From: Asterochloris sp. CNOR1 | Taxonomy: Eukaryota; Chlorophyta; Trebouxiophyceae; Trebouxiales; Trebouxiaceae | DNA: 64,000 nt | Direction: 5' to 3' | Assembly: GCA_963969365.1 (NCBI GenBank) | Contig: OZ017749.1 | Span: 868,001-932,000, forward strand | Part shown: positions 2,089 to 62,800 of the stretch, in pieces | Position numbering within the stretch: the first letter of the stretch is position 1 | Layout: every line of letters starts with the position of its first letter | Program-made: the position numbers and the translations under genes | Notes under the pieces: generated by a model | Told to the model about the DNA's origin: nothing | The model's input: only the letters and a program-made list of their open reading frames with translations | Databases searched by the model: none

Positions 2089-5000
2089 TCAGTGCTGGCC
2101 TGCTCTACGCAAAATGTCTTGCACAAGCCCTTCAGGGATCTGCCCGCTCCTCTGGAAGTCACGCATGTGCAGGATAGGCTCACAGCCTGCGCTGGCCATG
2201 CTACGTCCGCCAATTGTCTCAGTGTAGGCCTGGGGCTTGTAAGCCTCCAGCATAAATTCTCCCGCTGTGCCGATGTAGTTGCACACAGTCAGCAGTGCAC
2301 TGCACGGCACAAGAGCAGCTGAGCACAGCAGGGAGCTTGCGAGCATGCGCATGGAACGGAGTGCACACTGCAGAGACAACTGACATCAACAGCGCCCAGC
2401 GTGATAATGCTCTGGTAGCTGGCACCACGGAGTGCTCAGCGGGTGAGAGACCATGGCAGCTCACCTGAGACTGTTCATCTTCATGTAAGGGCAGGAGGCG
2501 CAGCCACCCTCAGTTGAACAGCCCTCCCCTGACGCCGGCCCCGGGATGACAGACAGGCCGCCTGGCAGCATGACAGGGCCACTGCTGCCACTGCTGGGCG
2601 CCTGCAGTCACCACCCAAGACAGTGAGGCGACATGGCTGCCCCCATCTGACCTGGTGAGCAGCTTGGGCTTGAGGAGCTTCCATGACGCCATGCCATTGT
2701 GAGGATCAGTAACCTCAGACAAGACAGGGCTAGCCTTGCACTCAAGTCTCTCATGTCACCCACCTGGCCAGAAGTGGTTATGGCCTGAGAGGAGACAGGG
2801 AAGACAATCTCCACTTCCACGTCCTTGCGGCCGCTGTCGCGCAGCATCTGCTGCACCTTGCGCACAATGCTGGTGATCATGCCTGACTCAGTACCCAGCA
2901 CCACCTGAAGCAGAGGAAGCAATTCGGGTGCAATGCTGGCGGTCAGCATAGCCCACTAATGTCCAGCATTCCAATGCGCCTTGATCTGGGTGAGTGTAAA
3001 GCAGGACTGCCAAAGTGAATAACCTGGCCCAGCAGCGGACTGGTCTTGCTGCAGATGGACCTCCAGGCATGGCAGTTCAGCTGCATGCCAATCTGGCATA
3101 CTGCACAGGATGCAATGATGCCGGCCATGGAAAGAGCATGTCACTGCTCCCAGCTGCTTGGGTTTTGATCAAGCCCCTGCGCTTCAACAAAGCTCCCCAC
3201 CTGCACCTTTTTGGCAAGGGCTTCCCCGGTGCACCCTGCAGCTTGGCTCCTGTTGCGCATGATCTTTAGATCACCAGCTTTTCAGGAAACAGCTTTCCCA
3301 GTGCATCCTGCAGCTCTTGTAACAAGAAACTACTGACGACATGCTGCCCTTGTCACAGCATTTGCAGACCGGCAGGGGCCCACCTGCAGCCTCTCAGGGA
3401 AGGGCTTCCCCAGCGCATCCTGCAGCTTGGCTGCAATGAAGTCCAGGATGTTCTGGGTGCTGCCAACAACACCCCCGTCACGGGCAGCCCGCGCCTCCAT
3501 GGCCAGTGTGAACATCTCTCCTGGAACCTCGAAGTGCGCTGTCAACAGGGCATCATTGTACCTGCAGCAATGAGGTGAGGCTTCACCGGGCTGTGCTGCC
3601 AAGCAGAGTCAGCTTTCAAACTTACAGTCCTTGCAGTCCACCTTTCACCAACCATGTGGTGCGCAAAGCAGGTGGCCCCTTGACAGCAGCGCAACCAGGA
3701 CTTCAGGCTATTCAAGGGCCGACTCTGCCCAGGGCTGCCTGACGTATGGCCTTCCACAAGGCTGCCCACGCCAGGCAGCCCTCAGCAGCATATGCCACCC
3801 CCAGCAGGTTGACTCACCCCTTGCGCACGAGCTCGGTCACCTCCCCGCCGAACACGTGGTGCACGATGCAGGTGCCCTCCTCAAAGTAGTGGAGGCGGGG
3901 CAGCAGGGCGTGGATGGATGCCTGCGTGTGCCCGGGGTGCAGCCTGGCAACCTCCTCGTCTGGCTGATCGGCCAGGGTGCGGAAGAGCTGAGCCAGGTTG
4001 CGGCCCATGTAGGTGTCTGGGCCGTACCAGACCGTCAGGTTGGGCACCTGAGCAAAGGCCTGCAGGAGATGGCGCCCGTGAAGTGAGTGTGAACTGCCAG
4101 ACAGCGCCTCTCTGCAGGAAGGGCGGGTGGCAAGAGCCCCAGGTCAGCTGGCCCCGTGGGCAGGTGCCTGCTGATGGCTTGCTTGCACTTGAGCAGACAA
4201 GCACCATGTAGTGCAGCCAGGGCAGATGTGGAGGTGGGCTGGGTAGCCAATGGCCGGCAAATCAAGCTGTGCCACCTCAACTGTCTCCATCTTCATGAAA
4301 GGCCCGCGGCTGGAAACAGGGTGCACCCAGAACCCCTCTCAGCCTCCCATATGAGGATGCTGTGCAGGGGCCTGTGCACACACACACACACACACACACA
4401 ATGTGAGGGAGCGTCCACAACGGCACCCTGTGCAATCCAGGTGTGCAGGGGAGGGGCACATACAGCTTATCATGCAGCAGCACTGTGCCAGCCAAGTTGC
4501 CCCTAGTTAGTCAGAAGGCCCACCTGCAGGACCGTCTGCACCACATTGGAGGAGGTGCAGGTGATGGTGGGCACTTTGGCGTGGGACTGGGCCTTGGTGC
4601 GCAGGCTGGTGTTGATGTACACCACATGCAGCGCCGGGGCATCCACATTGGCTGCCTCTCCCAGGTAGTGGTGGTACTGGGCGCTCTCAGCAGCCTCGGC
4701 CAGGGAGCACCCGATCTGGGAGGGGTCCATGCGGTACACCTGCCGGCAAGGAAGAAAGCATTTGTGAGTGTCTCTGACTTGACTTTGCTTCTGTAGCCAT
4801 CAGCCTGGGGACTAGAGTAGACAATCTGTGCAGGGCGCATGCCACAGATGCATGACATCTTGCCAGCCCAGCACCCCGCCAGGGATGCATGATTTGGTGT
4901 ACACTCTTTGCCTCAATGATCCATGAAAGGTAAAAGGTCACATTATGCTGGTCCTCAGCAGGTGAATGCCAGCAACTGAGCCAGCACCCAACCCCTTGCC

Positions 5001-7844
5001 AAGACAGGCTCACTTGCCACGACATCACAGGTGCCCTGCATTGTCAAGGGTAATGATCCATGCCTCAGTGGCCCATAGCAGGTGAGAGGCAGACCCTTGC
5101 TCAGTCACCCCCGCACATGTCACTTACCACGTCATCATGACGCCCTGCCCTGTCCCAGTACGGCACAAACTATCTCCAGCCAGGCGCAGTGCCCTGCCAG
5201 AACAGAGGTCACTGATCACGCCATTATGCCCCCCCCCAACCCCCCCCCCCGCCTTGTCCAGGCATCCCCAACCTCTGTAAGCTGGTGACTCACCGTAACA
5301 TTGCGGTGCCCTGCCTCGTCCAGGATGGCCCGCACATTCTCAGACATGAAGTCCACGCCCAGCACGGCGATAGCGCGGCACCCTGCCTCGGCCATGCGCA
5401 CAGCCTTGTCGGCCATGACCAGGCTGTCAGATATGGCGATGTAGGGCCAGCACGCCCCCGCACTGGTGAGCACTCCCTGCACCTGGGGGTCCATGTAGAA
5501 GTGGGCCACGACCCCCACCCTCTTGGCCTCCAGCAGCTGCAAAGGCAGTGGCAGACAGGAGATACTGCAGCAAATGGCCTTCAACACAGGTAGCTGCAGG
5601 CAGTGTCATAATCCTGCAGAAGGCTTGATCCCAGCAGCTGCAAACAATGATTGAGGAGGCATGGGACTCTGCAATGATTTACAATGTGACAGCAGCACTT
5701 CAGCAATGGTGGCTAGTCCTGCATGGCCTCCACCAGTAGCAGGCAGTGGCCTCAAGGGAGACACCTGCAGCAGCATGCTTAAGGATGCCCCCCATCCCCC
5801 CCCCCCCCCCCCCCCGGCAGCCTTCGTGGCCTCCAGGGCGCAGGCAGGGGCAGCTGTGGACACCAGCACACACGTGTCCAGTGCGCCCAGACAGGATGGG
5901 TCAACATCCCTGCAAGCCCAGACTCCAGCAGAGCGCAGTCAGCAAGCAGCATGCCTGCAGCCATCCAGGCTCAGTGCTGGCAGGCATGCTTGCACGACAC
6001 AGGCCACCACAGCAACACAGCAGCAGCGCATCTCACGCCAGGAGCTAGTGACAACCCTGTCTTACCTGCACCAGCTGGTCCACCTGGGCCCGGTCAGGCT
6101 CCAGGAACTGGGCCTGGGCCTCAGCAAAGTCGCCCTGGGGCTCGATACTGTCAGCGCCGATGACCATGGAGGGGAAGCGCGGCAGCTGCTGCGTGAGCAT
6201 GAGCGTGCGCTTGCGCAAAGTCTCAAACATGGAGAGGAAGCCATTGGTGCGGGAGGAGGTCATCATGGCAGGTCCCAGGTTAAGGGCTGCCAGTGCTTTG
6301 GGCTGCACCTGCAATGGGAAGAGGTATACCTGGTGTCAGCAGCCATGGTCTCAGTGTGGGAGGGGGCTTTTGGCCCCGCCGTCCAGGCTGCTGCAGCGCT
6401 GCAGCAGGCCATGCCACGGCAGGGCAGCTTCTGCCAAAACCATACACGGTAATGCACCACAATGCTGACAACGATCGGCCTGGCGGGGGTACCCAGCAGG
6501 GCAGCTGCGGGAGCAAGGATCTCATTGCAGCAGCACAGGCGCCCCTGAGGCCACCAGCGCCCCCGCCTCCAGAGTCAGAATGGACACCGCCCGCACCAGC
6601 AGTGCGCACAAAGAAGCGCATATCCATACCGGTGCTCTTGTGCAATCACCCACAGCCCCTTTCTGATGTTGATCCGACTGCAGCAGCATGCACAGGCTGC
6701 TGCAGCACTGTGTGTGCTGCCCCGCATGCATGTGCAGGTCCCCCAGTGCTGTTGTGCAGTCACCTGCAGCCCCTCATCGTGAGGCAGCCCAGACACCAGC
6801 AGCCATGTGTACATGCACAGCCATGGTGTGCCACTGTGGCCTCACCTGCAGCACCTCCTCGGGAGTCAGCCCGGACAGCCCTTGGACCAGCAGCGCGCAC
6901 AGGCCGCGCGTCAGCTCACTGTCGCTGTCCCCACCAAACTGAACGCGCCCCTGAGGGTCCAGGGCTGCTGTGACCCACACCTGAGCAGTGCACCCCATCA
7001 CACGGTTGGCTGCCACCTTGTCCCCTTCAGGCAGGCGGGGTAGCTGCTGTGCCTTGCGCAGCAGAGCCTGCAGAGGGGGTCGAGGCATTGTCGGCAAGGA
7101 GGGTGTGAGACTTTGATTGGGCTTGCAGAGCATATGCTGGCATCAAACACAGCTGCAACCAGTTTGGGGCAGTCTTTGACTGTCAAGCATATCATAGCAG
7201 GAGAGCTGCACATTGTCAGAAGCAAAGACCTGCCACCGCGAACTACTGCAAGGGGTGGTACCAATACAACAGCCAGACCTGCATGCGCTGCTTGGGGTCC
7301 TGGATGGCCTGAAACTCTACAGCAATCTGCTGCAACATCTGCCCTGGAAGGGTGGCAGGAGCCTCAGCCACAGGGACCTGCAGAGACCAGTGTGGCTTGT
7401 CAAGATGCTGTCCGGCAAGATCGAGCGCGCACAATGCATGCATGGGCCAACACCCTAGCTTGCAGTATGCAGGCATGTGGCATGACCCTTCATACACACA
7501 GCCAGCGCTGGTGCCAGGGATTGTCTGAGACTGCCGTGACCATGTCTTGCACACTGGGCTTGCATGGGCAGGGCTGCTAACAAGTTCTCTTTGCCATGGC
7601 TGAGCAGTATGGTGAGCTGAAGCTCAGTGCAGCACACCTCGACTGCTGTGGCATTTAGCCTGCTCAGTGCGGGCTGCTGCCTCTTTCCGAGCAAAGCTGC
7701 CTTCCAGGCCAGGTCAGCATGTCTTGACAGAACTGCTGGCCTTACTGCCGGGGCCACCTTTACTGCCGTGGCCACTATACTTGTGCTGTTCTGCAAATGC
7801 CGCCTTGACAAAGGGGCCCTGCTTGGTAATTGGCTCTGCGCCAT
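2089..7844 (-). CDS. QS: Quinolinate synthase, SufE-NadA fusion, chloroplast
   Basis: Exons in transcript order: 7638-7844, 7279-7377, 6846-7067, 6066-6308, 5294-5536, 4524-4739, 3818-4059, 3384-3561, 2764-2904, 2465-2601, 2089-2299. They total 2139 nt (712 aa), close to plant QS length. The enzyme makes quinolinate from iminoaspartate and dihydroxyacetone phosphate in plastid NAD synthesis. Residues 1-69 are a basic, Ser/Ala-rich transit peptide. About 75-180 is a SufE domain with the catalytic Cys128 in VMGCTAQVWV, which would supply sulfur for the iron-sulfur cluster. NadA follows, with VVAHFYMDPQVQG, VLGVDFMSENVRA, YRMDPSQIGCSLAEA, CTSSNVVQT, WYGPDTYMG, GYNDALLTAHFEVPGEMF, the plant-type GCSTEGGCASCPYMKMNSL block (Cys625/631/634) and GCEPILHMRDFQ. 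Most introns are phase 0. The donor of the 7279-7377 exon (GTCTGG) is the weakest junction. Introns after the 6846, 5294 and 3384 exons hold decayed copies of those exon ends. Confidence 0.95.
3196..3325. repeat. Two decayed copies of a QS exon 3' edge
   Basis: About 3196-3254 and 3267-3325 both resemble the donor end of the exon at 3384-3561. Shared features on the + strand are CACCTGCA, AAGGGCTTCCCC or its variants, and GTGCA/GCATCCTGCAGCT. They lie inside the following intron and carry substitutions and small indels. Confidence 0.7.
4377..4401. repeat. CA dinucleotide microsatellite
   Basis: A run of about eleven CA units inside a quinolinate synthase intron. It has no coding role and is likely polymorphic. 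Confidence 0.9.
5005..5255. repeat. Decayed tandem copies of QS exon donor edge, with C-tracts
   Basis: Three stretches starting near 5010, 5121 and 5209 resemble the donor end of the exon at 5294-5536. On the + strand each has C-T-T/C-ACC-type donor sequence, then a CATnATG-like stretch, then GCCCTGC and a TGTCCAGG-like block. The third copy is interrupted by two C-tracts (5228-5252). Confidence 0.6.
5789..5816. repeat. Poly-C tract in intron
   Basis: A run of about 20 C residues (poly-G in the transcript) within the intron between the 6066-6308 and 5294-5536 exons of quinolinate synthase. The nearby copies at 5718-5755 and 5820-5858 resemble the acceptor edge of the 5294-5536 exon (TGGCCTCCAG, then GCAGG). 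Confidence 0.75.
6522..6805. repeat. Decayed copies of QS SufE-exon donor edge
   Basis: Stretches at about 6522-6612, 6644-6690 and 6760-6805 resemble the 3' edge of the SufE exon 6846-7067. The first keeps GAGTCAG, GGACA, and CACCAGCAG followed by GCGCAC. The third keeps TCACCTGCAGC, CCTC, TCGTGAG and GGCAGCCC. The open frame is lost in these copies. Confidence 0.65.
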
Positions 7845-14903: not shown

Positions 14904-17900
14904 ATGCGTCCAGCACTGCTGGCAGCCTGTGTGCTGTTTGGAGCTCTCCAAGGGCACGCTGAGGACCAAGCAGAGGCACCCGGTGCTCAGACACCAGAAG
15001 ACGCCTGTGAGTTTTTGCGTTCATGGCCCTATCCTGCTCGTCACCTGGCTCCCCACAGTTTAGGTATGCATCAGTCTTGCTTGACAGAAAGGGTGCCCTG
15101 CCTGCCTGCCACCGTTGCCCGTCAGGCTTCCGAGACATGCGCTTTGCTATTCCAAGGCACAGCCTCTGCTTCCTACTGCGTAACAGAATCCTTGCTTGGC
15201 ACTGTCGACCATCCAACACCAGTGACAGCAGTTTCTCCCTGTGGTCACCCTACCCCACTGGCACGGTGCTTTGCTCCTGCTACCTCACAGCAATCTGTGC
15301 CTAAGGCTGCAACTTGAGTGGACGCCACTTGCCTCAAGAAACGCGGAGTAAGAATGCAGGTCCAGTATAGTGCGTTGCTGCTGCTGCCTCACATTAGTTG
15401 CTGGCTGCTGCAGTAAGCTGGGTGGAGGCCACAGTGCCCAAGGACTATGCCGTGCGGGGTCAGGATCAGTACATCTGCTTCCCAGTGCCTCTACCAGACC
15501 ACCCCTCCAAAATTGTCTCTATCCAGCCCCTCTCTGAGCAGTCAGTGGTGCACCACATGCTGCTGTTTGGTAAGTGCCTGGGCCTCCTTGCAAGTCAGGT
15601 CCTGAGCAATGAGTGATAAACGTCTCTTGCACTCCACTACCGTTTTGCCGTGCACCATTGCCTGCTGCTATCAGTGCTGACACACCAGTGCTGCCTTATC
15701 AGGACTGCTGCACTGCAAACTACCAAGCTGCTGAGCTTGCTTGCGCGCAGCCCTGCAAACACACACTGAGGCACAGCTGCAAGCAGAGTCATCTGCTGCA
15801 GGTGTCAGCATCTTGCAGACCCAGCATGAACTGAGTCATCACTGAGCGAGCACCTGGCTGCAGGCTGCCAGCGTCCTGGCTCAGGAGACCCTGCCTTCAA
15901 CTGTCAGATGACTCGCCCCTGTGGGGGCGCCTTTGAGCGTGTCATGTATGGCTGGGGCAAGAATGCACCACTCATGCAGCTGCCTGAAGGTGTGGGCTAC
16001 TCAGTTGGTCCAGGGTCAGCAATCACCACTCTGGTCCTGCAGGTGGGCTCGGACTGCTTGCATGGTGCATCGCCAAATCTTGCTGGTGAAGATTGGCAGA
16101 AAAGGGACCATCGTGCGCCCTGGCAGCTGCAGCTGATGCATGCTGGGCATTGCTAGCCTGCCAGATGGCTCTTGGCGACCAGCTCCATTTGCCACTGCAT
16201 AAACTTGCAGGCCTGTCTCCAAGGCACTGCTCATAAACCCCCAAATGCCCCAGGCTGCACCCGTCCCTGCAGCAACAGCAGCCTCCCTGTGCGCCTGCTG
16301 CAGGTGCACTTCCTGCAGGAACGGCCAGCAGAAGACATGTCGGGCATTAGGCTGGGCGTGTCTCCCCAGCCCACCCCACTGGCTGCGGGCATGCTTGCCT
16401 TTGCCGTTGGCTTTGAGATCCCACCCAACCAGGAGTCCGTCATTGTTCCCAACGAGTGCTGTTACAGTGGCTTTGAGGACCTGACAGGCTTTGCCTTTCG
16501 GGTGCACACCCATGCAATGGGCAGGTGAGCCCCACCCTGTGCCTTCTGCCCACCTCAAGCCCCATCTGCGTACACCCTTCCCTGGTTTGTGGTGAAGTTG
16601 CTTCTGAGGCCTGCTCGCCAGCTCTTCATGCTTGCCTGCTGAGCTGGCCCTTGAGTTGTGCTGGCTGCTTCTGAAGGCAAGACACTTCTTTGTGCACAGT
16701 CGCTTACATTGCATTGAGCCGGACGCCAGGCGCCAGATCCCTGCTGGGCGCTCCTGGCAACACTGCACATGGTTGTATTCCCTGTTCTTGCAAGTCAGTG
16801 TCCCCATGTGGCTGCCCTATAAGTTGGCCTTCTAGCTGACTGCCTGTCCAAGCACCACCCAGTGGGCGCATTTGTTTTGTGCTCGCCCTGCACTCATCAC
16901 TGCTCATGTGTGATACTGTGTTCATGCGCAAACCAATGCCCTGTGTTTTCTGCATTGACATGGAATGTGCGAGCCTTTGACTCACTGAGGAACCTTCACC
17001 AGTGGCTCTGCAGGTCTGTCTACCTGGACAGGGTGGAGCATGGCGATGGGATGGACCCCCAGCGCTTGTGCGAGCATGACCCACAGCTGCCCCAAGGGTT
17101 CACGCCGCTGTCTGAGCCACTGAGGCAAGCATGTACTTCTTGCAAAGTGGCTGTCTCACCTGACCCCTCAAGAGCCTGTACCTCAACCTTGTACCAGGGC
17201 GGCCATGACACAGCTGTGCAGCAAGTGGTGTAGTGCCTGTTCCACCTTGATCCACGTCTGCCTCTCAGCACAGCAGCATTCCTCTGTGCAGGATTCGGCC
17301 AGGGGAGGCGCTGCGCGCCTCATGCGACTTCTCATCGGCAGCAACAAACCATGTCGTGCGCGCTGGGGCATCTCATCACGATGAAATGTGTAACCTGTAC
17401 ATGATGGTCTCCTCTGAGCTGCCCTACTTCATGAGCTGCAATGGGGGTGTGGCTGCGGTGTCGGGGCGTGGCGCGGGGGGCATCCCTGCTCCAGCTCACC
17501 TGGAGGCAGACAGGCATGCGGCCTGGCGACCCCCCCAGCAGGCAAGCGCACATGCCTCTGCAGGCATCAGAGGGTCCTGGGCTTCGGCAGGCACCTGGCG
17601 CCACGGTGTCATGGGAGGCAAGCCCTCATGCCCCTGGCATGTGTTGTGGCAGCCCCAGGTGCATCTGCAGGCAGGCGTCGTCACAGTTTGCTGCGAGGAC
17701 GTCGCTTGCATCCCTGGCCCAGCCCACCTAGAGGCAGACAGGCACCCAGCCTGGTGTGGTGCTGCAGTAGGCAAGCCTGCTCATCCCACAATGGTGGGAG
17801 CATAGGAGCTTAGAAGCATTGTTGAAATCAACAGCCACCTTGTGGGCGCGGCAGGCTCACAAGCGCCCCCTCTGCCTTGTGTGCTGCAGGCATCAGCCGC

Positions 17901-20900
17901 AACGGGGTCAGCAGGCTGCGCTGCCAGAGAGGCACTGCTGCTAGTTTTGCTGCTGTCTGCAGAACATGGTGGAGCATATGTGAAGGCACCGTATTGCACG
18001 GGAGCTTTGGCTGGCCGTCATGCTCAAGCAGACCTGAATGCGCTGCTCTCAATGGGTGGCAAGCCACAAGAGCAGCACAGCAGGCAGCAGCCAGACATGT
18101 TGCAGCCTCATGGTCCTGGCGGTGCCTTCGTCCAACAAGCTCTGCGGTGCTGCAGGGCACTGGCGAGCCAGAGTTTGTGAACCCAAGCGGAGCGCCGCAG
18201 GCAGCCGTTGGCCAGGTCTCAGCAGTGGCCCGTGGCTGGAACGGTACGCTTTGGATCTTCCACCGCGGTGAGCGCGTTTGGGACGAGGACTCCTTCAGCG
18301 CCGATGGGCGGCGCATCACCTACAACACCCCCATCGCAGCTGACACGGTGGTGCAGATCAACCAGGTGGGGCCCGCGTCTCAGTGTTGCAGCGCTGGGAC
18401 TAACAGGCTTGGCACTGGTGTTTGTTCCAGCCCCAAATGCTGCTGGTCTGTGCCTGCATGGCACTGGCACGATGATGTAGTCCTGGGACGCCAACCTGTG
18501 CTACAAGCCCCACAGCTGCAAACAGGGGAGCACCCACTGCATGCTTGAACAGCTGAGTGCTGCTTTTGCAGCCCACAAACTGCAAACTGGTGTCCTGTTC
18601 CTTGCTGTCCACTCTCTGCAGCCTGCTGCATTGTTGCTCGCGCAAAGGCGCTGATTGTCGACCTGTTGCTGCAGGACACAGGCGCAGTGCTGCAGTCCTG
18701 GGGTGCCAACCTCTTCTACATGCCCCACGGGCTGACGGTGGACCCTGAGGGCAACATCTGGGTGACCGATGTGGGCCTGCAGCAGGCTCTCAAGTTCTCG
18801 CCCAGTGGCAAGCTGCTGCAGAGCCTGGGGCAGCTGCTGGAGCCAGGGAGCACCGAGGACCAGTTCTGCAAGCCCACCCACGTGAGCGTTGAACTGGGCG
18901 GCTGGGCCGCTTTGATGTTGGCTGCCCTGAACCATCCATGGCACACATCTTGTGCCGCGCTCAACTGGCAGGCAGCCTGCAGGGAATGGGGCCGCCTCCT
19001 GCCTGACGTGCCGGTCCTCCTACCGCCTGCAGATACAGCACCAAGATGCAATGTGAGCCACCTGCATGCCACAAGGGCACCTGGGCACCTGACGGGCATG
19101 CAAGGCTCAGCGCAAGAGGCATGCTAGGCTCAGCGCAGCCGTCAGTCTGGGACAAGCATATAGCACACGTTTGCCCTTGCCTGCCTGCAGGTTGCGGTGA
19201 CCAATGATGGCACCATCTTCGTGGCTGACGGGTACTGCAACAGCAGAGTGGTCAGATTCAACCCCAACGGCACCTTCCACGGCCACTTTGAGCTGCCAGG
19301 CTCAGGTGCCCTGGCTGTCCCTCACTCCCTGGTGCTGGATGAGTGCCGCAACACTCTATATGTTGCTGACAGGGAGAGCAGCAAAGTGCACAGCTTCGAC
19401 CTGGGCAACCACCAGCTGACAGGTGTGGCCCCACAGAGCTAGTAAAAGCCATGTGGGTCTCGGTGTCAAGCAGGCAGCTCTTTAATCTGGCACCTGTTAT
19501 CGGCCTTGCCCTGTCCTGATTTCAGAGGGTGCCTGGCAGCATGGGCATGCAGGTGCTCGGCAGGTCCCTGCTGCCACTGCCTTCACCTTGCTGCAGCTGA
19601 GATTGCATCGACAAAGGGGTCTTCCGAATGCTGCTCAAGGCATCTGCAACTTGGAGACATGCATCCTGTCCCACATGGTCCTTCAAGTTTCAGATGCCTG
19701 GTCATGCAGGTTCTGACAGGCTTCCCAGCTGCTGCTGCAGGCACCTGGGACCTGGGCAAGGAGGGCTTCCCATACGCCATCACTATGGGCCCCTATGGGC
19801 AGATCCTGGCACTGTGCTGGCAGCGCGAAGCGCCAGGGCAGCCCACCAACATGGTGCTGCTGGCCGCGGGGCCGGGTGAGGCTTCTCAGGGCGACCCAGT
19901 AGCTGCACTGCCTGACTGACTGGGTGGTGTGCCCCTGTTGACGGCTGCCTCTTATGCGCACCTGGGCACAAGGCAGATCGCAAGACCTGGTGGGACCAAC
20001 CGGGTGACGCCTGGGGTGCAGCAGCCCGAGACTTGAGTGCTCAAGGCTGAAGTCGTGCTGATCCCAGCCTCTCACAAGCGTCCTATAGCAGGCGCCGGTT
20101 GGCTCAGTGTTCGCTCTAAGATTGAATCGGTGGTAACTCTGTGTCAATGCACACATTTCAGCCAGCTCAGGCAGTAGTGGCCCTCCCTGCACGCGGTCTT
20201 TGCAAGGATGCTTGGCAGCTGCTTACACATCGTGCCAATTGCCAATGCACATATCTCAGCCAGCATGCACAGTGTGTGACTTCCTTGCGGACAACTGCCC
20301 TGGTGCTCCTGCCCATGGGCAGCCTGAAGATCTCATTCACAACACCTCTCAACTCCCTTCAGGCACACCTCCTGAAGACATCTGGCGGGCAGATGGTGTG
20401 CAGACGCCCCACGACATTGCCCTCACGGCAGCCCCGACACCACACAAGGGCAATGGCGACCGCGCGGTGGCAGTGCTTATCGCAGAGACCAGGATGAGGG
20501 GCAGCAGTCTGCGCAAATTCATTCTGCTGCCAGAAGGTGGTTGTGGCAGCCTGAAGCCTGCTGCTGAGAAAATCTGCAAGTTTTTGGCAAGATGCTATGC
20601 TTGCTTCCTCTCTGCTGCTTCTGTGACCTGCTGTAGCTGCATCAGTGGCGTAGCCCAACTGGGTGCTGTGCAGCAGACATCATAATGCCTGCTGCACTTC
20701 CTCGAGTCAATGTCTGGTGTGTCATTTGAGCATGGAGCTCCTGCTGGCCAATATGCAGGCAGCAGCACAACAACAGGACTGCTGGCCATGCTCCAGGCTC
20801 ACGCTGCGGAATCAGCAAGTCAGCAGCATAGACATCAATGACATGCCAGCTGCAGGCCTCAGCATGGCCTGCAAGTCAGCAGCACAGATATAAGGTGATA

Positions 20901-23136: not shown

Positions 23137-23266
23137 GAGTCTCCCCAGGAGTGCAGACTGAAACACACAGCGTTGCCAGAAGTCATTCAGAAGTCAGGCA
23201 TTTAGGATAAATGACCGACAATTGTTGACCGGATATGCCAGGGTCTCTTTTGCCAGCTCCTGATCG

Positions 23267-25451: not shown

Positions 25452-25567
25452 TCGGGCTGAGGGTCGACAGAGATGTACATCAAAAATGAATTGGATCATA
25501 GCCATTGGAATGCCCAACATGCTCATGACTATAAAAGCTACAGTCGAAAGGGTGACAGCTTGAATGA

Positions 25568-39300: not shown

Positions 39301-42300
39301 GCAGGGGCCAGCCTTCTCCCCTCCCGCCTAAAGACACCACACGCGATGCAGGAGCCTGGCAAACGCTGAGGCCAGCCTTCTCCCTTCCCGCCTACAGAAC
39401 AGCAGACAGAGTGCGTTACCTGCTGGGCACCAGCCATGACCATTTGATGCGCCAGGTGCTGCTGCCTGAGCAGCAGCATCTCCTGCTGTGCCTGCTGCTG
39501 GTGCAGCAGATCCATGTGGCCACCCTGGTGGGGCAGCCCAGGAACATGGGGCTGCTGATTAGCCAGCATCTGCCCCGCCGGCCCCCCAGCCCCCTGCATC
39601 TGCAGCATGCTGTTGAGACCCATCTGCATGGCCAGCTGCTGCTGGGAGGCCTGCTGCTGGGAGGCCTGTGGGCCCAAGCTCAAGCCGCCCATCTGCACCC
39701 CCTGCAGATCACAGCAGGGTGCAGCATGTCAGGCCGCTGTGCATTGGGAGCAACAAGCCTACAAGCCCCATGCAGAACAATTCAGCCAGAAGGCAGGGGA
39801 GCAGATGACGAAGCAGGTAGAAGTGCAGCACCCCCAGGGGGCTGGCAGCTGGTCAACAATGCAGGCAGCACAGGCAAAGATGGTAGGCTGCTGCATCTGT
39901 GAGATGGTGCAGTAGTTTTCAAGGTGAAGTGCTGTCTGATGTCCCCTTGCAGGGGGCAACCTGTTGAGCCTGCCTGGGACCCGCTGGCTGCTTTGGACAA
40001 GCAGCACACATCAGCAAGCTCTGGGAGCAAGCCCTGCTTGCCTGCATCCCTGGCCCCATCTGCTGCAGGGTGGCCAGCTGGCTGACCATGCCAGGAGCCA
40101 GACCCAGATGATCCAGCTGGGCTCCATAAGTGCCGTAGTGGCCAGCGCCCGCAGCAGGGCCATAGCCTGCCTGGCTGTAGAAGTGGGACTGCGGGTCCAT
40201 GCCCGTGCTCTGCAGCATCACTGGGGTAAGGCTCAGCAGCAACTTGCTGAACCCTGGCTAAGACAGACAGACTGGCGATGCAGAGATGCTCAGCAGCCAT
40301 GCATGCCACAGCTCTGACGCGACTGCAGAGAGCACTGCCTGTAGCTGGGCGACAGCTACCCGGACAAGAGTGGGACTAGGGGGCTCATGCCTCTGCAATG
40401 ACACTGAGGCACAGCTGGGTATGCAAGACTGCTTCGGGCTGCAACTGGTTTGTCCAAAAGCAGGCGCACTGACACTCACAGGCAGGAGAGCCAGCACTCA
40501 CAACCAGCCCAACATGCTGGAAGCCCTACAGGCCAGGCTGAAGGCTTATGCACCCCTGCAGGTGGCAGCTGCATGACGGCAGGGCAGCCCCAGAGCAAGG
40601 AAACCTCTGCCTGATCCATGGCCCGCAGAGATGCTGCGCACACCCCTCAAGAGCATTGCTGCAGGGTTCATTGCATTGCCAGACTGCCATCTAGTGCTTC
40701 CAACATCAAGCACTCATATAGTGACAGACAGGCCCCCTGCAATGACGACGCCGGGATGGTGCAAGCCACAGGTTGTAAAAATCCCACTCCGAGTCATGGT
40801 GACCACACGTGTGCTATGCTATGAAATCCAACAGATTCTTCTGCATCTCATCCACTCAGGAAGTTCCTGCTTAAGCAGCCATCACCCCCTGCTGTCCCTG
40901 TGAAGGTCACTTGGTGCGCTCTACAGAGAAAGGCTGTCCTCTGCCAGCACGTCGGCCGCTTGGTGCCCAGTCACACGGTGCCCCTGGAAGGCTGCAGCAG
41001 AGCCCACCTGTATGCCCCTGCCAGGCATGAAGCCCCGGCCACCCCCAGCACCCCAACCCCCACGCCCCCTGCCTCCCTCACTGCCTGGCGGCATCTGATC
41101 CCGCGGAACTGCCCTTTTTATCTCTATCTGTTTGTCGTGCAGCTGCTGCATGATGCCGCTGCGGAAGACCTGCAGGGCGGTCGGGGGATCTTGCTGAGCT
41201 TCAGCAGTCAGGTGCAGTCAGTTCATGTGAGCGAGCATCAAGTCTGCCTAAGCACTGACAAATTTCCTGGGTTGTGTGCAGCTACAAGGCCTGCAGTGGA
41301 GCAGATTGTGCCTGTCAGCATCATGCCACAAGGCTTCATGCTGGACATGCTTCTGTTCGGAATTGTCGGCAGCACTGATTGTCACGATTGTTGTGGAACC
41401 TACTATGGGGACGTCATCCACCGTGCCAAAGAGATCATCCCAAAGGGTAGGGCAGAATCATTATCTGCGCCATCATGTGCAGCAGCTCACCTTATCCACG
41501 GACTCCTCAGCGAAAAAGCTGATGAACCCAAAGCCTCGGGGCCTCTTGTTGTCATGGTCATACATCACCACTGCCTCCTCCACCGCTCCAAACTGTTCAA
41601 AGTACTTCCTGCAGCAGGGCATGGTCCACAATCTTGTCGCACCCAAGAAACATGCCAGGCCCCAAGGTCCCATGTGTGAGGTCTAAAGGGGCACCGGGAC
41701 GGCGGCAGGAGAGGCTGCGTGCAGCCCTCTGTTCCAAGGTGCCAGCCCACCTGAACGCTGTCTCATCAACTGAGGGTGGCAGGCCCCCAACGAACACCTT
41801 CCGTGTGCGGGTTGTGTTGCCAGAGAGCTGCCTCATGCGCTCTGCCTCCTCACTCTTAGGGACAGCCTTCTTGGCTTCCACCTCTGCAAGGCAGGGGGGC
41901 ACTGTGTGCACCCAGGTGGGGAACCGCGGTTCTGGTCACTTGGCTGCTGTGCCCCACTGCTGCTGGTGCAGCGTGTCTGACAGCCTGGCTGGCGCTGGTG
42001 CCTCCCCTGCAGGTGCCTGCTGCCATGACCCCTGGCAGCTGGCCTCCAGTGGCAGACTGGCTGTGCGCCTGCAGATGGGCATCTTCCGGATGACGCTGCA
42101 CTCGCGGCTGCTGCGCTGTGTGTGGCTGGCTGGCGCCCGTCAGTGGGTGACGGGTGCTGGGCCCCTTCCTCCTGCCAAGCCTGCCTTTCAGCCTAGCCTG
42201 GCTGATGTGTTTGGTGCCCGCCGGCTCAGACACACCGTGACTACCAGCGCAGGCGCCCTCATGTAAGCCAAAAGTGCACGGATGGTAATGCCAGGCAAAG

Positions 42301-48500: not shown

Positions 48501-50792
48501 TCCAGCCCCTGGCCATCCCCTCCGCCGGGCGTGCAGGCGAGATGTCCTTTGCTGGGGCTGGCGCGCGGCACAGCATGGACCAGCGCATGAGCTCGGACAG
48601 CTTTGGGGAGATGCCCAAGCACATGGCTGAGCAGGTGGGCTGGTCACTGAACCTGGTCACTGCAATACATGTCTGCGAGCCCTGCAAGCACAAGACTATT
48701 GCTTTGCTTTAGATGGCAGTGCTGGTCTTCTCAAGTGCCTCTCCTGGCCTGGCTTGCTTGGGCCCCGTGGCCTCACCAAGCATGTAGGGGTTGTTGAGGC
48801 CCTTCGTGCACACTGAGGCCTGCATCTCGTAGCCAGCTCTAGTGACACTGACTACCTTCAAGTTTGATGCATGCACCTCCCTCACCTTAGTGGTTGCCAC
48901 AGCAGCAGTAAAGAATGCATGACCTGTGACTGATCAGTGCCTGGCCCCCCTTGCTGCAGGTTCTTGACAGCCCGACAGGTGCCTCTGCCCTGGCTGCCAG
49001 CGGACCCGCCAGCATCAGGGGCCTGCCAGATGACCTGCCAGGGCAATCCAACGCGTCCTCTCCATCCACCTTCTCCCTCTTCTCTGTTGGTGGTGCCTCC
49101 ACCCCCAGTCCAGTATCCCCCCAGCCGGCAGCCTTTGCCACTGCCTCTCCCACCTCGTTCGAGAGCTGGCAGAGCAGCACAGTTGCCAGGTGTGGCGACA
49201 AGTCAGTCTCGGCTTCTTGGTGCTTGCAACTGCACTGTGCACCCAGCATCTGAGAGCTGGCGCTGCTGCACCAGTCATTTGGCCTTGTCAGTTGTTACCT
49301 GGGGCCTCAGGGAGGAACAGATGACCTTGCTGTTTGCTGCTGTCAAAGCAGTAAAATTTTGTTTGCGACAGGTCAGGATGATTCAGGTTGATCATCCCCT
49401 TATGAGACTTCTGGTCGCAGCATTCTCAACTCCAGTCTTTTGCTGTGCAGGCCTGCAGCAGGGCAGCAGTGGTCTCAGGCGCAGGCCAGGCAAACCCAGC
49501 GGCCCCTGCGCGGCTGCATGAATGAGGTGGTCTGCGGGGCCATGATGATGGCCTATGAACGCAGCGGGCAGTTTGACAGGGTGGGCAGACATGGCATCAT
49601 AAATGCGTGGCTGCTTGTGTCTGCATAAATGGGGCAGTGTTTCTGGTTGTCTGAGCTGCTCAAGCTGTGCACAGGTATCGGGTCCGCTTGCTGGGCTGGC
49701 AGTGCTGTTGGGGAACAGGCCATTGCTTCCATTTACTGCTGGGCCATCTTCCCCTGCACAAGCTGCACTGTGGCCAGTCTTTAATGGCAGGATGGAATTT
49801 ACAGTGATTGTCAGCCCTGCCTGACTGAGCCTTACGCATACAGTCTGCAGCACATTCGCTCCATCCCTGGGTCATCAGGTACCCATCCTAGCTACAGCGC
49901 ACACTCATGGCTGCCTTGAGGTTCAGCCCCTCTCTGCGTGCAGGTCGTGCAGCTGCTGGAGCGCACCCCACGCCTGGGCGTCACCCCCAACCTCATCAAC
50001 TACAACATTGCGCTGTCAGCCCTGGGCAAGAATGGGGCCTGGCAAGCGGCAGAGCAGCTGTTCAATGCCATGCCCGAGCACGACGCAGTGACCCACGAGA
50101 CGCTGACTGCTGCCTACGGCATGGCTGGGCAGGCCAGGAAGGCTGAGCAGGCCTTTAAAGCCCTGCTGGAGGCTGGGCACCACCCCCGCGACTACGCCTT
50201 CACTGGCCTCATCGCAGCGCACAGGTAGGAGCACCGGCAAGGGTGTTGCAGGGATCCCACCAGGGCTTGTGCAGCTGCTTGGCTGCCTGCATCTGGTTCA
50301 GGCTGTACCCTGCTGAGGACAATGCCTGCGCTGTGCGCCTTGCTCTGGCAGTTTCTGCCTTGTTGCTGCATCACATGTTCGCTGCGTCACATGCATGCTG
50401 ACTGGCTCTTTACCTGTTGTTGTCCTGCCAGGGCTGGTTCCCTCAGCACCTGAGCTGCCTTTATTGCCCTGTCCTGCAGCTTGGCAGGTGACTTCAACAG
50501 CGCCCTTCAAGTGCGCCAGCGCATGAGGCAGCTGCAGGTCACCCCCAGCGTGCATGTCTTCAATGCTCTGATCGCCGCCTGCGAGCGGGCAGGGCACTAT
50601 GAGATGGGCCTCCAGCTCAGAAAGGAGATGCTGGACGCGGGGCAGGCCCCCAACACCACCACCATGCAGCTCATGCATCAGATCGGTGACAAGGGCATTG
50701 CTCACATTGAGCGCCAGCAGACAGCAATGGCGGCCCTATCGGCTGCCGTGGCAGCAGCTGGTGCCTACATGGTCCGAACCGGCCTCTTCTAG
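45577..50792 (+). CDS. Pentatricopeptide repeat (PPR) protein, organelle-targeted
   Basis: Exons: 45577-45813, 45993-46135, 46319-46610, 46893-47154, 47392-47581, 47792-47966, 48296-48634, 48960-49189, 49451-49580, 49944-50224, 50480-50792 (2592 nt, 863 aa). PPR proteins bind single-stranded organellar RNA, one base per helical-pair repeat, and act in processing, stability or translation. The N-terminus (MARLLLNHLSSSGLSGQAA) is an Arg/Ser/Ala-rich transit peptide. Two repeat blocks are visible. The first, about residues 130-390, has units such as TYTALVTALGNAQQWDRALK and DVVSCTALITALGADAQWQR. The second, about 640-850, has NLINYNIALSALGKNGAWQA and HVFNALIAACERAGHYEMGL. Between them lies a disordered Ser/Ala/Pro-rich insert of about 200 residues. 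It is P-class: no E/DYW editing domain and no SMR domain. The C-terminus is a short hydrophobic stretch (AALSAAVAAAGAYMV). Confidence 0.92.
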
Positions 50793-51382
50793 TGTCCTCC
50801 TCATTGCAGCAGCTGGCCCGCAGCTCCATTGGCTGTGGTGGCCGCTGCCAGCACTTTCATGAGTAGATCAGGCCTCATCTATATTTTTGCCACTGGTCTT
50901 GGACATTCGCAGTGCCGAGAGCAGTATATTCTGACGCTATCTGATCTGCTTGCTAGCCAATTGCTTGGACGCCTGTCCTTCCCACCTTTGCCCACCATTC
51001 CGTTTCGCATGCCCTGCTCTGCGTTTCCCTCAAGAGTCTTTTTTTGCACTGTGTAATTGTATAGGCAGGTGACCTCTCTGACTGGCTGACATGCTGGGGA
51101 CATAAGCATTCCATGTAGGCTTGCACTGTACATTCAGCAGGGATGGCTTGTACACCGCGTGAATAGTGCTCAGAGTGCCACAGAGCCTTGCCAAAGTCTG
51201 AGGGCCATCTAAGGAGCTATGCTCTCGGCGCACCAGTCAACAACCCTTGCAGCACTGATCATCCTGTTCTCCACATTGCAAAGTGCAACTGGCCTGCTGC
51301 CTTCAAGCTTCGATTTGGTGAGGCATAGGCAAAACTCCAATGATTTGGGGAGACTTGGCATTCTTCAAGACGGGTTCTTGAA
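50793..51382. other. Spacer between PPR and RTF2 genes
   Basis: 590 bp holding the PPR 3' UTR and the RTF2 promoter/5' UTR. A TGTAA, the polyadenylation signal used by many green algae, occurs near 51052. No gene seen. Confidence 0.45.
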
Positions 51383-54081: not shown

Positions 54082-57000
54082 CTAAGAGCGCTGCTGCCTG
54101 AGCTCTCCTGCGGCTTGGTGGCACTCATGGTCTCTCTGTCTGGGGCGCTGCCATTGCAGCAGATGGCAGAGCATTGCGAGCAACAAGGTCCTGCACAGAC
54201 AGTGTATGGAGTTGCACCACTTGAGAATGTGGACTCCAGCAGCCTCAGTTGAATCGCTGGCTGCAAGAGCATAGGCACTTGCATCAGCGCAGATACCCAC
54301 CAGAGGCTGTCCCCTAGCCTTGTGAAGGCCTGAAGGCTGCTGCTGAGCAAAGGCATGTTTGAGGCTGCTGGCTGGCATTTCAGGTGCAAGCAAGCCCTGC
54401 AGTCATCCACACTGGCTACACGACGCAGAAGAGTGGGAGTGCGCCCCTCCCTTGACCACTATCTTGTGGGTCTCTGCATGCAGGTCTGGTCAACATGCCA
54501 GACACCCACCTGCAGCTGATCTGTCAGCTGGCTGTAGAAGGCATAAAAGTCTGGAGATGCCCCCTTGCCCTTGACCACCTCTACCATGTAGATCCCCTGT
54601 AACACGTCCAGCACCTCAACCCCTATGCTGAGGGGGCCCGTCTGTCCGGGGGCATGCAGCCGCAGCCTGCAGCAGGGGATCAGCATGGACACCGTGGGTC
54701 AAGGGAGGGCGTTACTAGGTTCTCAGTCACACTGCAAGCATAGCCTGCAACGGGCTGCAGCAAGGGGGTCAAGCGCTCAGTTGCCTGCATGAGGCCTGCT
54801 GATGGTGCCAGGGATTGAAAGGTGCAGCTAGTTGACACAGCTGCAAGGAGGCTTTGCACATTGCACCCCACAGCGCCGCCTGCAGCCAGATCCAGCAGTC
54901 TGTTTGATGGTGCCTTTACACAACAGTGCACACTTGCAGGGAGCACGGTGCTGGCTGCTCACCTGTTGTGCCCTTGCCGCTTGCTGGCAACCCCGCGTGC
55001 CCAGCAGCTGCCTTGTACGGCCCTTTGAACAATCTCAGGCATGCTGGCAGCATAAAAACAACAGTCATGTTGACATAGGGAAGGCGGGCAAGGCCCTGTG
55101 CACTTGCCAAATGTAAGCATCCCAAGTGGAGTCCCAGCTATATCATTGGCACGAATAGCGAACGGTGGGCTTGCCTGTTGTGGCCCCGACGCTTGCTGGC
55201 AGCCCCCAGGCGTCCAGCTGCTGCCTCAATGCCCTTCAATATGGCTGATGGCTCGGCGCGGCTGGTGAAGCGAGTGTGTCTGGCGATAGTGTCCTCTCGG
55301 GCCGCAAAGAGGGCACTGATGTCCAGTGCTGCATTGATCAGCTGCAGGCAGCAAGTGCCGCTGTGCTCAGCGCGTTGGCGCTCTGCTCAATGATGCTTTG
55401 CATCGCCTTCATGCATGACTGTCCTGTGTTGCTTAGCTTTACGACGCTACTGGCAGCAGCCACGGTGCGCATCTGATTGCACTCAGAAGCGGGTTTGCTG
55501 CACACAGCCACTGTCGGCGGCCAAGGCACTGCACAAACGATATGCTCACAGAGGTGGTGGGTGCAGGCATGATGTGGAGGAATGCAATACACCACAAGAT
55601 GACAAAGCCACTGCGCTTCCCAGCCAGGCAGCTACAGCTGCACAAAGTGCTCATAGGCAACACAGCGTTGACCAGCCGCTGACATGGTAGACATGCCTGG
55701 ATCACGAAAGGCACATGCAGACCATCATGGAATTGCCAGCAGCAGGTCCCCATACACTGTCAGGCTGAGTCGACATCTACAGGTAAGCCTGTTGGTGGCC
55801 TGTATGAGTTGAGCTTCACACAGTCTGAGGGACATCTGCAGGTGGTGCACACCTCAAAGGCGTTCATCTTCTTGAGCTGCTTCCCTGATACCAATGTGCC
55901 TGAGGCCTGCCTGCTGATTGAGGCCTGCAGAACAGTGGGGAGCAGGCTACCACGCGTGTTCAGAAATTTGTTGCTGTAGGAGTGCCGCATGCAGCAACAC
56001 GCAGCTGCCCTTCATTGAATCACTGCCTTGCTGAACAACAACAAAGCGGCACAGGTAAGGGCGGCTAAGGGCGCCTGTGAATGTGCAGGATCTGGGCGAG
56101 CAGCTTGGGACACGCTGTGCACACCACCACATCAACAGCATGGCCCTGAGCCTTCCATAAACAGAAGCCTTGCCCACCATGCCTCATCCAGGACTTGTGG
56201 CTCCATGGTCTTGTCGAACATGTGGGCATGCACTCCAGCAACCCAAGCTGCTGCTACGGACCTGCTGAGCGTTGGGTCAGCAAACATGCATTGGCCTCGG
56301 CATGCAGGCCTTTCACTGCCTTACCTCGTCAAGGTACTGAGGCTCCACAGTGTCATCAAACATGTGGTCATCGCTGCCGTCAGAGTCCCCAGAGGACCGC
56401 GGCGACAGCCCCCTGGCTGGGTGGTACCCCTGTTGCACCCAAGGCATGCCTCTCAGCTCTGCAATTGTTGCCCTGCAGGCCATCAATTTAATCCTTCAGC
56501 TTTGCAGGTACAGCGCCTGCTCGGCAACGGCGGGGCACAGGCCAAGTATGCAGCACTTGCTGCAGACATGGACTGCGGCCTCTCCTGCACCCAAGGCAAG
56601 CTCTGCAATCCTACAAGGTTTGCCCTGCACCAACACAACCCTTGTCACGTTGGGAGATGGCACTCAAGGCCTGCTTTCTGGGTCACTGCACTGCAGGGCT
56701 TTTATGTGCAACAGGTGCACAGCTTCTGCATGTCTGTGTCAGGCCCCTCCGCTGAGACTCAGAAGATGCTCTGCAAGTCTGCAAGCATCTCGCCCAAGCA
56801 TGGCAGGCGCAGTCAGTGGTGAGGGCTGCTTCCAGGGCATTCACTCACCCCTCAACATGGGACGCAAAGCTCCGTGCTGCAGTGTACTTGCTCCCTGCGG
56901 CGATGAAGACGCACAGCCACAGCATCACTTGTCGTGAGTCTGGCAGCAGGCACAGACGGTTGCTGCTGCAAACCCCCCTCCTCTCCCCAGCCTGGAGCTG

Positions 57001-59727: not shown

Positions 59728-59873
59728 AGAAGGAGAGTACCGTAGGTCAGCTGCCGGGCCAGGCCAGTGTCTGCTGAGCAGGCTTCAGGCAGTTGCAGAG
59801 CTAGCAAATATGCCGCAGGAGTGGCTACACTGATCTGAGCAAAGTCAGCCGTCCAACTCAGCAACTTGCAGGA
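59728..59873. promoter_or_regulatory. 146-bp divergent promoter, CIPK / TSR1
   Basis: The start codons of the kinase (-) and TSR1 (+) face away from each other across 146 bp, implying a shared or overlapping promoter. No specific motif identified. Confidence 0.45.
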
Positions 59874-62800
59874 ATGGCCGGGCCCAGTGCTCATGGGCAG
59901 AAGAACAAGGTTATTGCAGTCTTGCGACATCCTGGACAGAGGCAGATCTGTCCCAGCCCACGACGCATTCACAGTGTTGATTTTGTTGAAAGCCCGTTGC
60001 GAGGCAAACACCTCCAGATCCTGGACTGTGTTGCCTGCAGCCTCACAAGCCTGGGCGGCACGCAGGTGCAAGTGCCCGCTCTAAGCACCAGGCTGCCAAG
60101 TCGGGGGGCCACCGCCAGTCCATCAAGGCTTCCTCCCAGCCGACACACAGCAAGCAGCAGCGGCAACAGGTGGCAGCTGCCCGCAGGTGGGCAGGCATGC
60201 ACCGTTTAGAAGCAGCAGCAGTGCTGATAGGCTTTGTTACCTGAACATCATCAAACCTGTTGTGGCTGGGCAACGCAGACCAGCGGGGCCATTGGCGCTC
60301 AGCTGCACTACACTATGGCGGTGCTGGCAGTGGCTGACTGCATGTCAGAAAAGCAGGGGCTGTTCAGGCTCAGCTGCACCACACTCACCCCTGCTGTCTT
60401 GCTTACAACTCTGCGGGCCCACAACTACAAGGCCACCATTGCTTCCTCTCCTTGCACACTGCGGCTGCAGGGAACCTCACAGCAATGCTCTGCTGCTGCC
60501 TGCGGGGCCAGAAGCGCAATGGGGTGCAGAGCCTGTATGGAGGACGGTGCCTGTGCCTGCAGGCCCCACAAGATGCAAAGAGATGCAGACAGTTTCTGAG
60601 CTGCACCACACTCTACACCCGTGGAGGCACCATATTGTACCTTGGCCACCTTGTGGGAAGTTGCTTGATCAACCCCGTCCACAGCTAGGCACCTCATGCT
60701 GTGCAGGGGAGACAAGGAGGTTGCTGGACAGCAGCGCTTCCCTGCATGTACACACTCACATTGCTGTGTGCGGCGCAGCTGCGCGACATCGTTCACACCA
60801 AGCTACTCACTGGGCCCTGCACCTCCCCATGCAGTATCAAGACAGCTTTTTCTGGAGGTGCTTAGCCTCTGAAGGTGCCCAACCTCTGCAAGGCAAAGCT
60901 CTGTATGGAAGAGGCTGTGCCCACAGGGGCCAGGAGGTCATGAGCTGCTCCACACCCTGCACATGGCCGCCGTGCAGCGCAGCGGCATCGTCAGAGCTCT
61001 GATAACTCAGTCACGCATGCCGCGCAGGGCCCAGAAGCGAGAGGAGGTGCTCAGCCAGCGGCGCAACCCAGGGGCCCCCCTGACAGTGTGCCTGCTGCCC
61101 CTCTCCGGCGATGTGGACCTGCCCCGCCTGTGGGGGGACCTGGTGGGCGCCTGCCGACCAGAGGGGGCGCAGCCGCCAGCCACGCCTCGGGCAGACAGGC
61201 CGCAGGGCATGGAGCTGGAAGAGGAGCACCTGCCCGCACGTGAGCAGGGCCCTGTGCCAGTCATCAGGAACGGGAAGGAACCACACAGACATGGCCTGCC
61301 CATCTGGCCAGGTGCCGTGCTGCACCCTTGGCCTTGATAGCACCCATTTTTGGGTACTGAGGTGACAGTCCTGCTGTTTAACAGCGAGGGCGAGGTGTGC
61401 TGAAAAGGGGGGGTTGCAGACGGAAACAGAAGGGATATCGCAGATCAGAGATGGGAAGTGGAGGGAAGGCAGTCCGATAGTGCACTGGGAGCAGGAAAGC
61501 ATCAGCAGAGTGCTGGTTCCTTAATGATCTAGTGCCTCGTCACAGCGTCCTCAGGCGCACTTGCGAGCTGCAGAGAGAGGCTCCAAGCTGGCCCCGGCTG
61601 ATGCGTGCAGGGCTGCAGCCCTGCACACTTGCTGCGCCTGGTCAGACACGGCAGCTGAGGCTGCTGCCACCACCCACAGACCGCAGCAACCCTCTTGACT
61701 TGGTAGCAGTCGCTTCGACTGCTGAGGTGAGCGCTTGGTCATGTCAATAGAGGTTGGGCATGTCCTGTGAGCTGTGACCAATATGTGCAGAACATATTAG
61801 TATCAGTGCAAAACAGGGCATTGGTTGTCAAGTTCCACATGCAACTGGTAGGCAAGCTTCCACTGCTGCGTGCACACCTCACCCACCCTGCCCTGATCCT
61901 GCTGCGTTCCTGGCAGCCCACCCCATTGAGATCTGCACAGAGCAGATGCACCTTCAGCTTCTCCTGCATGGCTTTGGCATGCTGCACCCACAGACTGGCC
62001 TTGCTCTTCCAGCATTGTGACAAGCAGACCAACTATCCCGCTCTCAGACCGGCTTGAACTGCAGGTTGTGCTCTTGGTGCTGCCCGTCAAGAAGGGAGCT
62101 GTGCTGCTGGACACCGCTGGTGAGGCAGCTCTGGCAGTGTTGCGCACTATGGGCCTGCCCGGGCTGATGGCAGCAGTGCAGGGCAGCAGCGAGGCCAGCC
62201 TCAAGGAGCGGGCGGCAGCCAAGAAACTGGGCGAGGCAGCTGTCTCATCACAGGTGGGCAGCGCGGGCCACCGCCTCTTTGACTGAGGTATGCCTCTGGC
62301 GTGGCAACTGCTGCCCAGACGCGCAGCTGGACCCGCTGATACACACAAGCCTCCTGCACCAACAACTGCACTGCTTATGGCAAGCAATGCACTGTCTGAG
62401 TCAGCATGCATCTCAATGGAGCCCTGCTGCCAGTTCCCTGGGCTCGATGTGGCCTCTGCAAAGTGCACAGTAATGCCCTCAAGAGTGCCAGGTGCTGCAG
62501 CACCTTGCAGATGCTAAAGTCGCCGTTGCTTGCACTGCGCCCTGCAGATCCCTTGCGAGCATAGTGTGTAGCTGCCAAAGCGTTCAGAGAGGGCCAGCAA
62601 GTGCCAGCGCACCTGGCAGAGGAGCAAAGTCACTGTTGCTGCTCTGCATTCTGCAGATCCCGGGTGAGCACAGGGTGCTGGCAGCCAACTCCCCCAAGGA
62701 CGCGCAGCAGGTGCTGCGGCACCTGGCAGACTTCCACCCCAGCCTGCCTTTGTGGCGCCAGCAAAGGCCGTTGGTGTCCATTGATGAGGCAGAGGCAGCC

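Follow-up and report, generated by a model that had tools for sequence, protein, structure and literature searches.

Decayed direct copies of exon edges in introns of the green alga Asterochloris sp. CNOR1

Introns of the green alga Asterochloris sp. CNOR1 contain diverged copies of the edges of their own neighbouring exons, often with the splice site, which we refer to as ghosts. We examined them in a stretch of 64,000 nucleotides (contig OZ017749.1, positions 868,001 to 932,000, assembly GCA_963969365.1), hereafter the window, in which an earlier note had pointed to such copies at seven exon edges in five genes. Our data show that the copies are local, direct, above chance, frame-broken and neutrally decaying. 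They are a genuine and measurable trace left in introns by short-range duplication, and known processes account for them well. Ordinary repair-type direct duplication over short distances probably feeds intron growth here, with the exon preserving one of the two copies.

Local direct repeats and their tie to exon edges

The sequence analysed amounts to 284 kb, namely the window with two 10-kb flanks (together the 84-kb window block) and two 100-kb blocks from other contigs, or about 0.5% of the 56.4-Mb, 21-contig genome. Gene models are predictions of a simple home-made gene finder trained on the 284 kb itself. Its consensus reads CAG|GTGAGC for donors and CTGCAG|G for acceptors, the TGCAG of the acceptor being very strong. 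The two consensus sequences overlap, and CTGCAGGTGAGC could serve as either site.

We compared 150-bp chunks of the window with the 500 bp that follow them. Of the 845 chunks, 12 reached a score of at least 180; none of 845 did so in any of the four controls (reverse complement, far sequence, far reverse complement and dinucleotide shuffle). Over the 284 kb, with low-complexity seeds removed before counting, an ungapped scan detected 158 near direct repeats, whereas the same number of far offsets yielded 5. Likewise, a gapped catalogue with a score threshold of 100 holds 99 near pairs vs 5 far ones, and at scores of at least 110 the counts are 80 and 0. This catalogue was built with stricter gap costs; a first version with lenient costs was discarded, as its far controls were nearly equal (257 near vs 145 far at scores of at least 130). 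Self-BLAST returned 27 direct matches and a single inverted one scoring at least 140 at distances of 100-300 bp, and thus no inverted excess. Beyond 5 kb, direct matches were no commoner than inverted ones (42 vs 48 scoring at least 140, within each of the three blocks), giving no sign of an introner-like dispersed family. The catalogue pairs are spread over the window block (33) and the two 100-kb blocks (26 and 40). The density that the earlier note found striking in one 64-kb stretch is therefore not peculiar to the window, since blocks of other contigs are similar.

The spacing originally given, 70-230 bp, is about right: 83 of the 99 catalogue pairs lie 30-218 bp apart. A special period of 200 bp was considered and rejected. 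Self-BLAST matches crowd at ~140-230 bp, with none below 100 bp; this lower gap is a BLAST artefact near the main diagonal, as an offset-by-offset scan shows many spacings below 100 bp. The fall-off beyond ~220 bp is roughly what exon plus intron lengths allow. Only 1 of 35 intron pairs is spaced more than 225 bp, vs ~4.9 expected from uniform sizes, and among exon-intron pairs, followed up to 600 bp, 9 of 46 exceed 225 bp vs ~13.6 expected. An excess remains just below this limit (9 exon-intron pairs vs 3.6 at 200-225 bp; 6 intron pairs vs 1.6 at 175-200 bp). Since the cut-off roughly fits gene geometry, an explanation by nucleosome or Okazaki size is unneeded.

Exon edges were compared with their own and with unrelated introns, a comparison on which the earlier note had staked its claim. 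The set comprised 412 of 666 predicted introns (median length 251 bp), introns shorter than 60 bp or beside exons shorter than 40 bp having been dropped. Own edges scored far above length-matched unrelated introns. The figures given are those of a rerun with strict gap costs, whereas the first run and the tests of single places described below used lenient costs with matched controls. Of the 412 introns, 31 had a donor edge and 29 an acceptor edge that beat all 100 controls (4.1 expected each); 58, or roughly one in seven, had at least one such edge (~8 expected). A score of at least 100 with the own intron was reached by 13 of 412 donor edges, vs 0.06 with other introns, and by 12 of 412 acceptor edges, vs 0.05. 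Furthermore, when distant introns of the same gene served as the control, scores of at least 90 numbered 18 of 345 vs 0 for one edge type and 17 of 345 vs 0 for the other. The excess is confined to the top tenth of ranks, and once edges scoring at least 75 were set aside, direct and reverse-complement scores did not differ significantly (p=0.22 for donors, p=0.086 for acceptors). Copies of exon edges are a minority feature of introns.

Placement of the catalogue pairs, labelled after removal of exons shorter than 25 bp, was then set against expectation. Pairs that cross an exon edge are 1.8-fold more frequent than expected (30 vs 16.9, p=0.001), whereas pairs wholly within introns occur at about the placement rate (35 vs 32.4), and pairs of a mainly exonic and an intronic copy number 17 vs 21.8. 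The pattern originally described thus survives as a mild preference for edges; the duplication itself is not specific to them. Coding selection on one of the copies is the likely reason for the 1.8-fold excess. Introns that bear ghosts are longer than others (median 384 vs 232.5 bp, uncorrected for detectability).

Seven named exon edges and the decay of ghosts

Pfam searches of four predicted proteins gave three firm assignments, namely SufE-NadA, the NAF-domain kinase CIPK, and TSR1, and a CHY zinc-finger match under the cut-off. The fifth gene, a putative zinc-finger gene, comes from the gene models. Predicted TSR1 matches the human and yeast TSR1 structures; over the part holding the copied edge, the alignment to human TSR1 is only weak (16.4 bits). 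Each exon edge was scored against its own intron and against 200 random introns. Five of the seven edges named in the earlier note were clear, with 0 of 200 controls equalling the own-intron score, one was borderline (2 of 200) and one was at chance (14 of 200).

The SufE-NadA fusion gene (minus strand; gene model, Pfam SufE and NadA) provides three of the seven. The donor edge of exon 3384-3561 is among the clear cases and has two ghosts, one at about 3275-3316, seen in the sequence and by alignment, and one at about 3196-3248 that keeps its GT (85% identity, score 177). Part of the first, 3275-3307, is a 33-bp open in-frame stretch that the gene finder took as a mini-exon; with it, the NadA protein would hold a near-repeat of a short motif. 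The Pfam score is 98.7 bits with the mini-exon and 99.6 without it, favouring neither form. The donor edge of exon 6846-7067 is the borderline case, and here the stricter catalogue supports ghosts at 6746-6795 (78% identity, score 140) and, more distant, at 6541-6610 (72% identity, score 146), both with GT kept. The donor edge of exon 5294-5536 is the case at chance and is missing from the stricter catalogue. Two acceptor edges of the same gene, each against 200 controls, were likewise not significant (exon 5294-5536, 29 of 200; exon 3384-3561, 118 of 200).

The other four edges all gave 0 of 200. In the zinc-finger gene (plus strand), the acceptor edge of exon 24230-24373 has a ghost at 24047-24125 whose AG is lost to TG (75% identity, score 189). 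In the gene with the sub-cut-off zf-CHY match (plus strand), the donor edge of exon 32893-32946 has its best short ghost at 33129-33189 (CTGCAG|GTAGG, 45 of 63 positions identical), mostly outside the range 32947-33130 first proposed. A longer query, 32506-32966, also gave 0 of 200, with 32765-32958 aligning to 32990-33189 and thus covering most of that range; two weaker, putative ghosts within it score 103 and 91. The stricter catalogue of the 284 kb contains no CHY pair. In the CIPK gene (minus strand; Pkinase and NAF domains), the donor edge of exon 55175-55341 has a ghost at 54957-55013 (78% identity, score 147). The predicted live donor at 55173-55174 is GC and the ghost in the same intron has GT at 54961-54962; the ghost site may be the stronger of the two. 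In TSR1 (plus strand; gene model), the acceptor edge of exon 62657-62839 is preceded by ghosts at about 62476-62511 and 62527-62620 (whole range 62476-62620), ~106-110 bp apart, the second of which keeps its AG. The corresponding catalogue pair joins 62482-62578 with 62588-62688 (73% identity, score 176).

The catalogue contains 47 exon-intron pairs, of which the three blocks contribute 11, 18 and 18. Exactly one splice dinucleotide lies within 42 of them, 21 being donors and 21 acceptors, and none of the 47 spans both junctions of an exon, in keeping with the view of the earlier note that local duplication across splice junctions adds sequence to introns. The statement that the frame is usually broken was also borne out: among pairs that carry indels, 27 of 28 indels in the exon part are not multiples of three. 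Mismatch rates at codon positions 1, 2 and 3 are 0.228, 0.212 and 0.300, with position 3 higher (p=7e-5), as would be expected if changes in the exon are mostly silent and those in the ghost fall at any position. Splice dinucleotides are kept in 26 of 42 ghosts vs ~23 predicted by general identity (p=0.44), indicating that they decay neutrally. By the look of their sequence, the intronic copies behave as junk and appear nonfunctional. Identities vary between 0.64 and 0.94, and nothing points to one burst.

Origin of the copies

Most simply, the copies reflect short-range DNA duplication tolerated by introns, rather than a new splicing or intron-making system. We propose that short-range direct duplications, with matching blocks mostly of 30-110 bp lying mostly 30-220 bp apart, arise frequently through the filling and rejoining of staggered or nicked breaks, and that such events would fall throughout genes. 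A duplication wholly within an exon would mostly be lost to selection, and doubling of a whole exon would add an exon, whereas an event crossing a single junction could be absorbed by the intron. In that case the spliceosome would presumably keep to whichever site preserves the exon as it was, and the other copy of the edge would turn into intron together with its splice site. The intronic copy would then drift neutrally while selection holds the exonic one. Edge copies should accordingly remain recognisable longer than copies between intron segments, because only the intronic copy drifts freely. The counts lean in this direction: exon-intron vs intron pairs number 3 vs 6 at identities of at least 0.85 and 26 vs 16 below 0.75, suggesting an exon-intron share that rises with age, a trend given here as plain counts.

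Several observations weigh against this account. About 5 of the 99 catalogue pairs are expected by chance. All exon-intron pairs taken together are in weak excess (47 vs 38.7, p=0.066), and wholly intergenic pairs are fewer than expected (1 vs 5.7, p=0.04, by home-made gene calls). Aligned blocks are nearly equal in identity in their exonic (0.753) and intronic (0.739) parts; alignment trimming may hide the faster intronic divergence that the argument on the lasting visibility of edge copies predicts. The C2 47944 pair has its acceptor-edge copy on the unexpected side. A few young pairs inspected by eye showed no clear pattern of microhomology at the break ends. Similarity beyond the aligned blocks is not above control, a result that does not discriminate, since simulated tandem copies are equally low. 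Finally, the ratio of block length to spacing has a median of 0.40 in 41 of the 47 exon-intron pairs, those spaced 300 bp or more being left out, and simulated tandem duplicates gave 0.89-0.93 when all indels were small and 0.61-0.64 when large ones were frequent.

This last value bears on the alternative that survives best, namely that the copies are templated but not tandem: a repair polymerase would paste a block of ~60 bp from less than 200 bp away, leaving unrelated spacer between the copies. The observed 0.40 is nearer to simulated non-tandem copies (0.47-0.51) than to the tandem range of 0.61-0.93, although the block fraction of these simulations was preset by hand to 0.3-0.7 and they covered donor-side duplications only. 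Events of this kind are reported among rice insertions of 10-1000 bp (Vaughn and Bennetzen 2014, as summarised in PMC7407515): some of these are tandem, some partly tandem and others non-tandem copies drawn from within 200 bp of the break. In contrast, intron pairs of at least 0.8 identity, mostly close, run head to tail over nearly the whole unit (median ratio 0.80, n=13), and deletions following a tandem event would mimic partial pastes. We regard non-tandem copying as a tentative alternative, less likely than repair-type duplication in general. Exon-intron pairs of at least 0.8 identity have a ratio of 0.30 (n=8) vs the 0.80 of intron pairs; this apparent difference between the two classes is not seen at matched spacing of 80-220 bp across all identities (0.45 vs 0.51, p=0.24). 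Either deletions have worn the tandem units down severely, or partial, non-tandem copies make up many of the events. The 'repeated short tandem duplication' of the earlier note can thus be clearly made out in young, close pairs only, and the wider pairs look like partial copies. The stronger version, in which introns here grow largely by repeated templated pasting of ~60-bp blocks from within ~200 bp, often from exon edges and with no head-to-tail arrangement, we consider unlikely. If it were true, each ghost would be a neutral clock beside a living reference, and ghosts across the genome could reveal the rate of intron growth, its size spectrum and its decay.

Alternative exons, whether decayed or living, produced by tandem exon duplication and mutually exclusive in use, might account for the 26 of 42 ghosts that keep their splice site and for the NadA ghost at 3275-3307 that the gene finder called an exon. 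Such exons are quite improbable as a general explanation: the ghosts are partial, with both junctions in 0 of 47 pairs, 27 of 28 indels shift the frame, and the mini-exon brings no better NadA Pfam match (98.7 vs 99.6 bits), which is not decisive.

Birth of introns by tandem duplication of an AGGT-bearing exon segment (the Rogers/Hellsten model) would derive both splice sites from one duplicated site, and the overlap of the donor CAG|GTGAGC with the acceptor CTGCAG|G means that one site could do both jobs. The junctions of 363 introns, those shorter than 120 bp left out, were compared with mispaired splice sites. Tails lie slightly above control in most bins (right side with at least 20 matches, 16 vs 8.45; both sides with at least 38 matches, 7 vs 3.55; local alignments scoring at least 70, 14 vs 8.44). 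The mean in-register identity, however, equals that of mispaired sites (26.15 vs 25.95 matches), the left side with at least 20 matches falls below control (9 vs 11.57), and local alignments scoring at least 80 number 2 vs 1.14. The model is rejected for the bulk of introns, as the in-register mean equals control, and is very improbable as the source of the ghosts; a few introns may have been born in this way.

Chance or shared composition, in which CTGCAG-rich words common to exons and introns are picked out as look-alikes, is a negligible prospect: one of the seven edges is at chance and one is borderline, but unrelated length-matched introns, distant introns of the same gene, reverse complements and far offsets all fail to reproduce the scores, which refutes chance as the source of the population, although any one weak pair may still be due to it.

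Short-range repair duplication has known counterparts. In humans, PMC8355091 describes small tandem duplications as the most frequent class of short insertion and as products of Pol alpha-primase fill-in at 3'-protruding breaks. The events described in PMC7407515 and PMC8355091 share with ours the direct orientation, the short range within ~200 bp and the tandem and partly tandem forms. Ours differ in being mostly old and diverged, with breakpoints mostly lost, and they are read from sequence. In the potato RdRp gene (PMC4974935), a duplicated segment also lies over one intron-exon boundary and former exon sequence is left in an intron; there a new intron and a new donor arose, whereas here an old intron seems merely to grow while the ghost decays. 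The gain of introns by AGGT tandem duplication, as reviewed in PMC3443670, likewise involves tandem duplication with AG|GT sequence, and the in-register similarity of splice sites that it requires was not found here for the bulk of introns. In animals, tandem exon duplication as described in PMC9013439 also places exon-like sequence in adjacent introns; here the copies are partial edges rather than whole exons, frame-broken and read from DNA only. Predicted exonic nucleotides with a local intronic match of at least 80% identity make up 0.29% (259 of 89,093), above the 0.06-0.08% of worm and fly and below the ~2% of human given by the same paper, a rough yardstick only, as method and search span differ. 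A literature search over titles and abstract openings, with subscription papers outside it, did not turn up a survey of algal introns for decayed copies of exon edges, a weak negative.

Arguments on how introns grow usually draw on transposons or on rare, recent gains of introns. Ghost edges carry a built-in reference, the live exon, and local duplications within one genome could thus be read for their direction, their size and their neutral decay. Two cautions apply: the recognisable exon edges may in part be a visibility effect, and such copies can mislead gene finders, of which the NadA mini-exon may be a case.

Further ghosts and arrays in the window

Beyond the edges first reported, the catalogue contains further ghosts in the window. 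On the plus strand, the acceptor edge of exon 18675-18770 has a ghost at 18448-18513 (77% identity, score 180) and that of exon 15414-15569 one at 15266-15328 (70% identity, score 125), both with AG lost, and the donor edge of exon 50480-50771 has one at 50820-50881 with GT lost (66% identity), whose score of 100 equals the threshold. On the minus strand, CIPK exon 56325-56472 has ghosts of both edges, the donor copy at 56167-56229 with GT changed to GC (70% identity, score 117) and the acceptor copy at 56579-56629 with AG kept (71% identity, score 105). Also on the minus strand, the interior of NadA exon 3818-4059 is copied at 3648-3707 with no junction crossed (67% identity, score 100, again the threshold).

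Two fairly young tandem arrays lie within introns of the window, at 39215-39390 (spacings of 56-64 bp, 91-92% identity) and at 34233-34365 (spacings of 42-84 bp, 84-88% identity). Both are fresher examples of the same local duplication process. Contigs C1 and C2 open with long CCCTAAA arrays, which we take to be plant-type telomere, and these contig starts suggest a near-chromosomal assembly.

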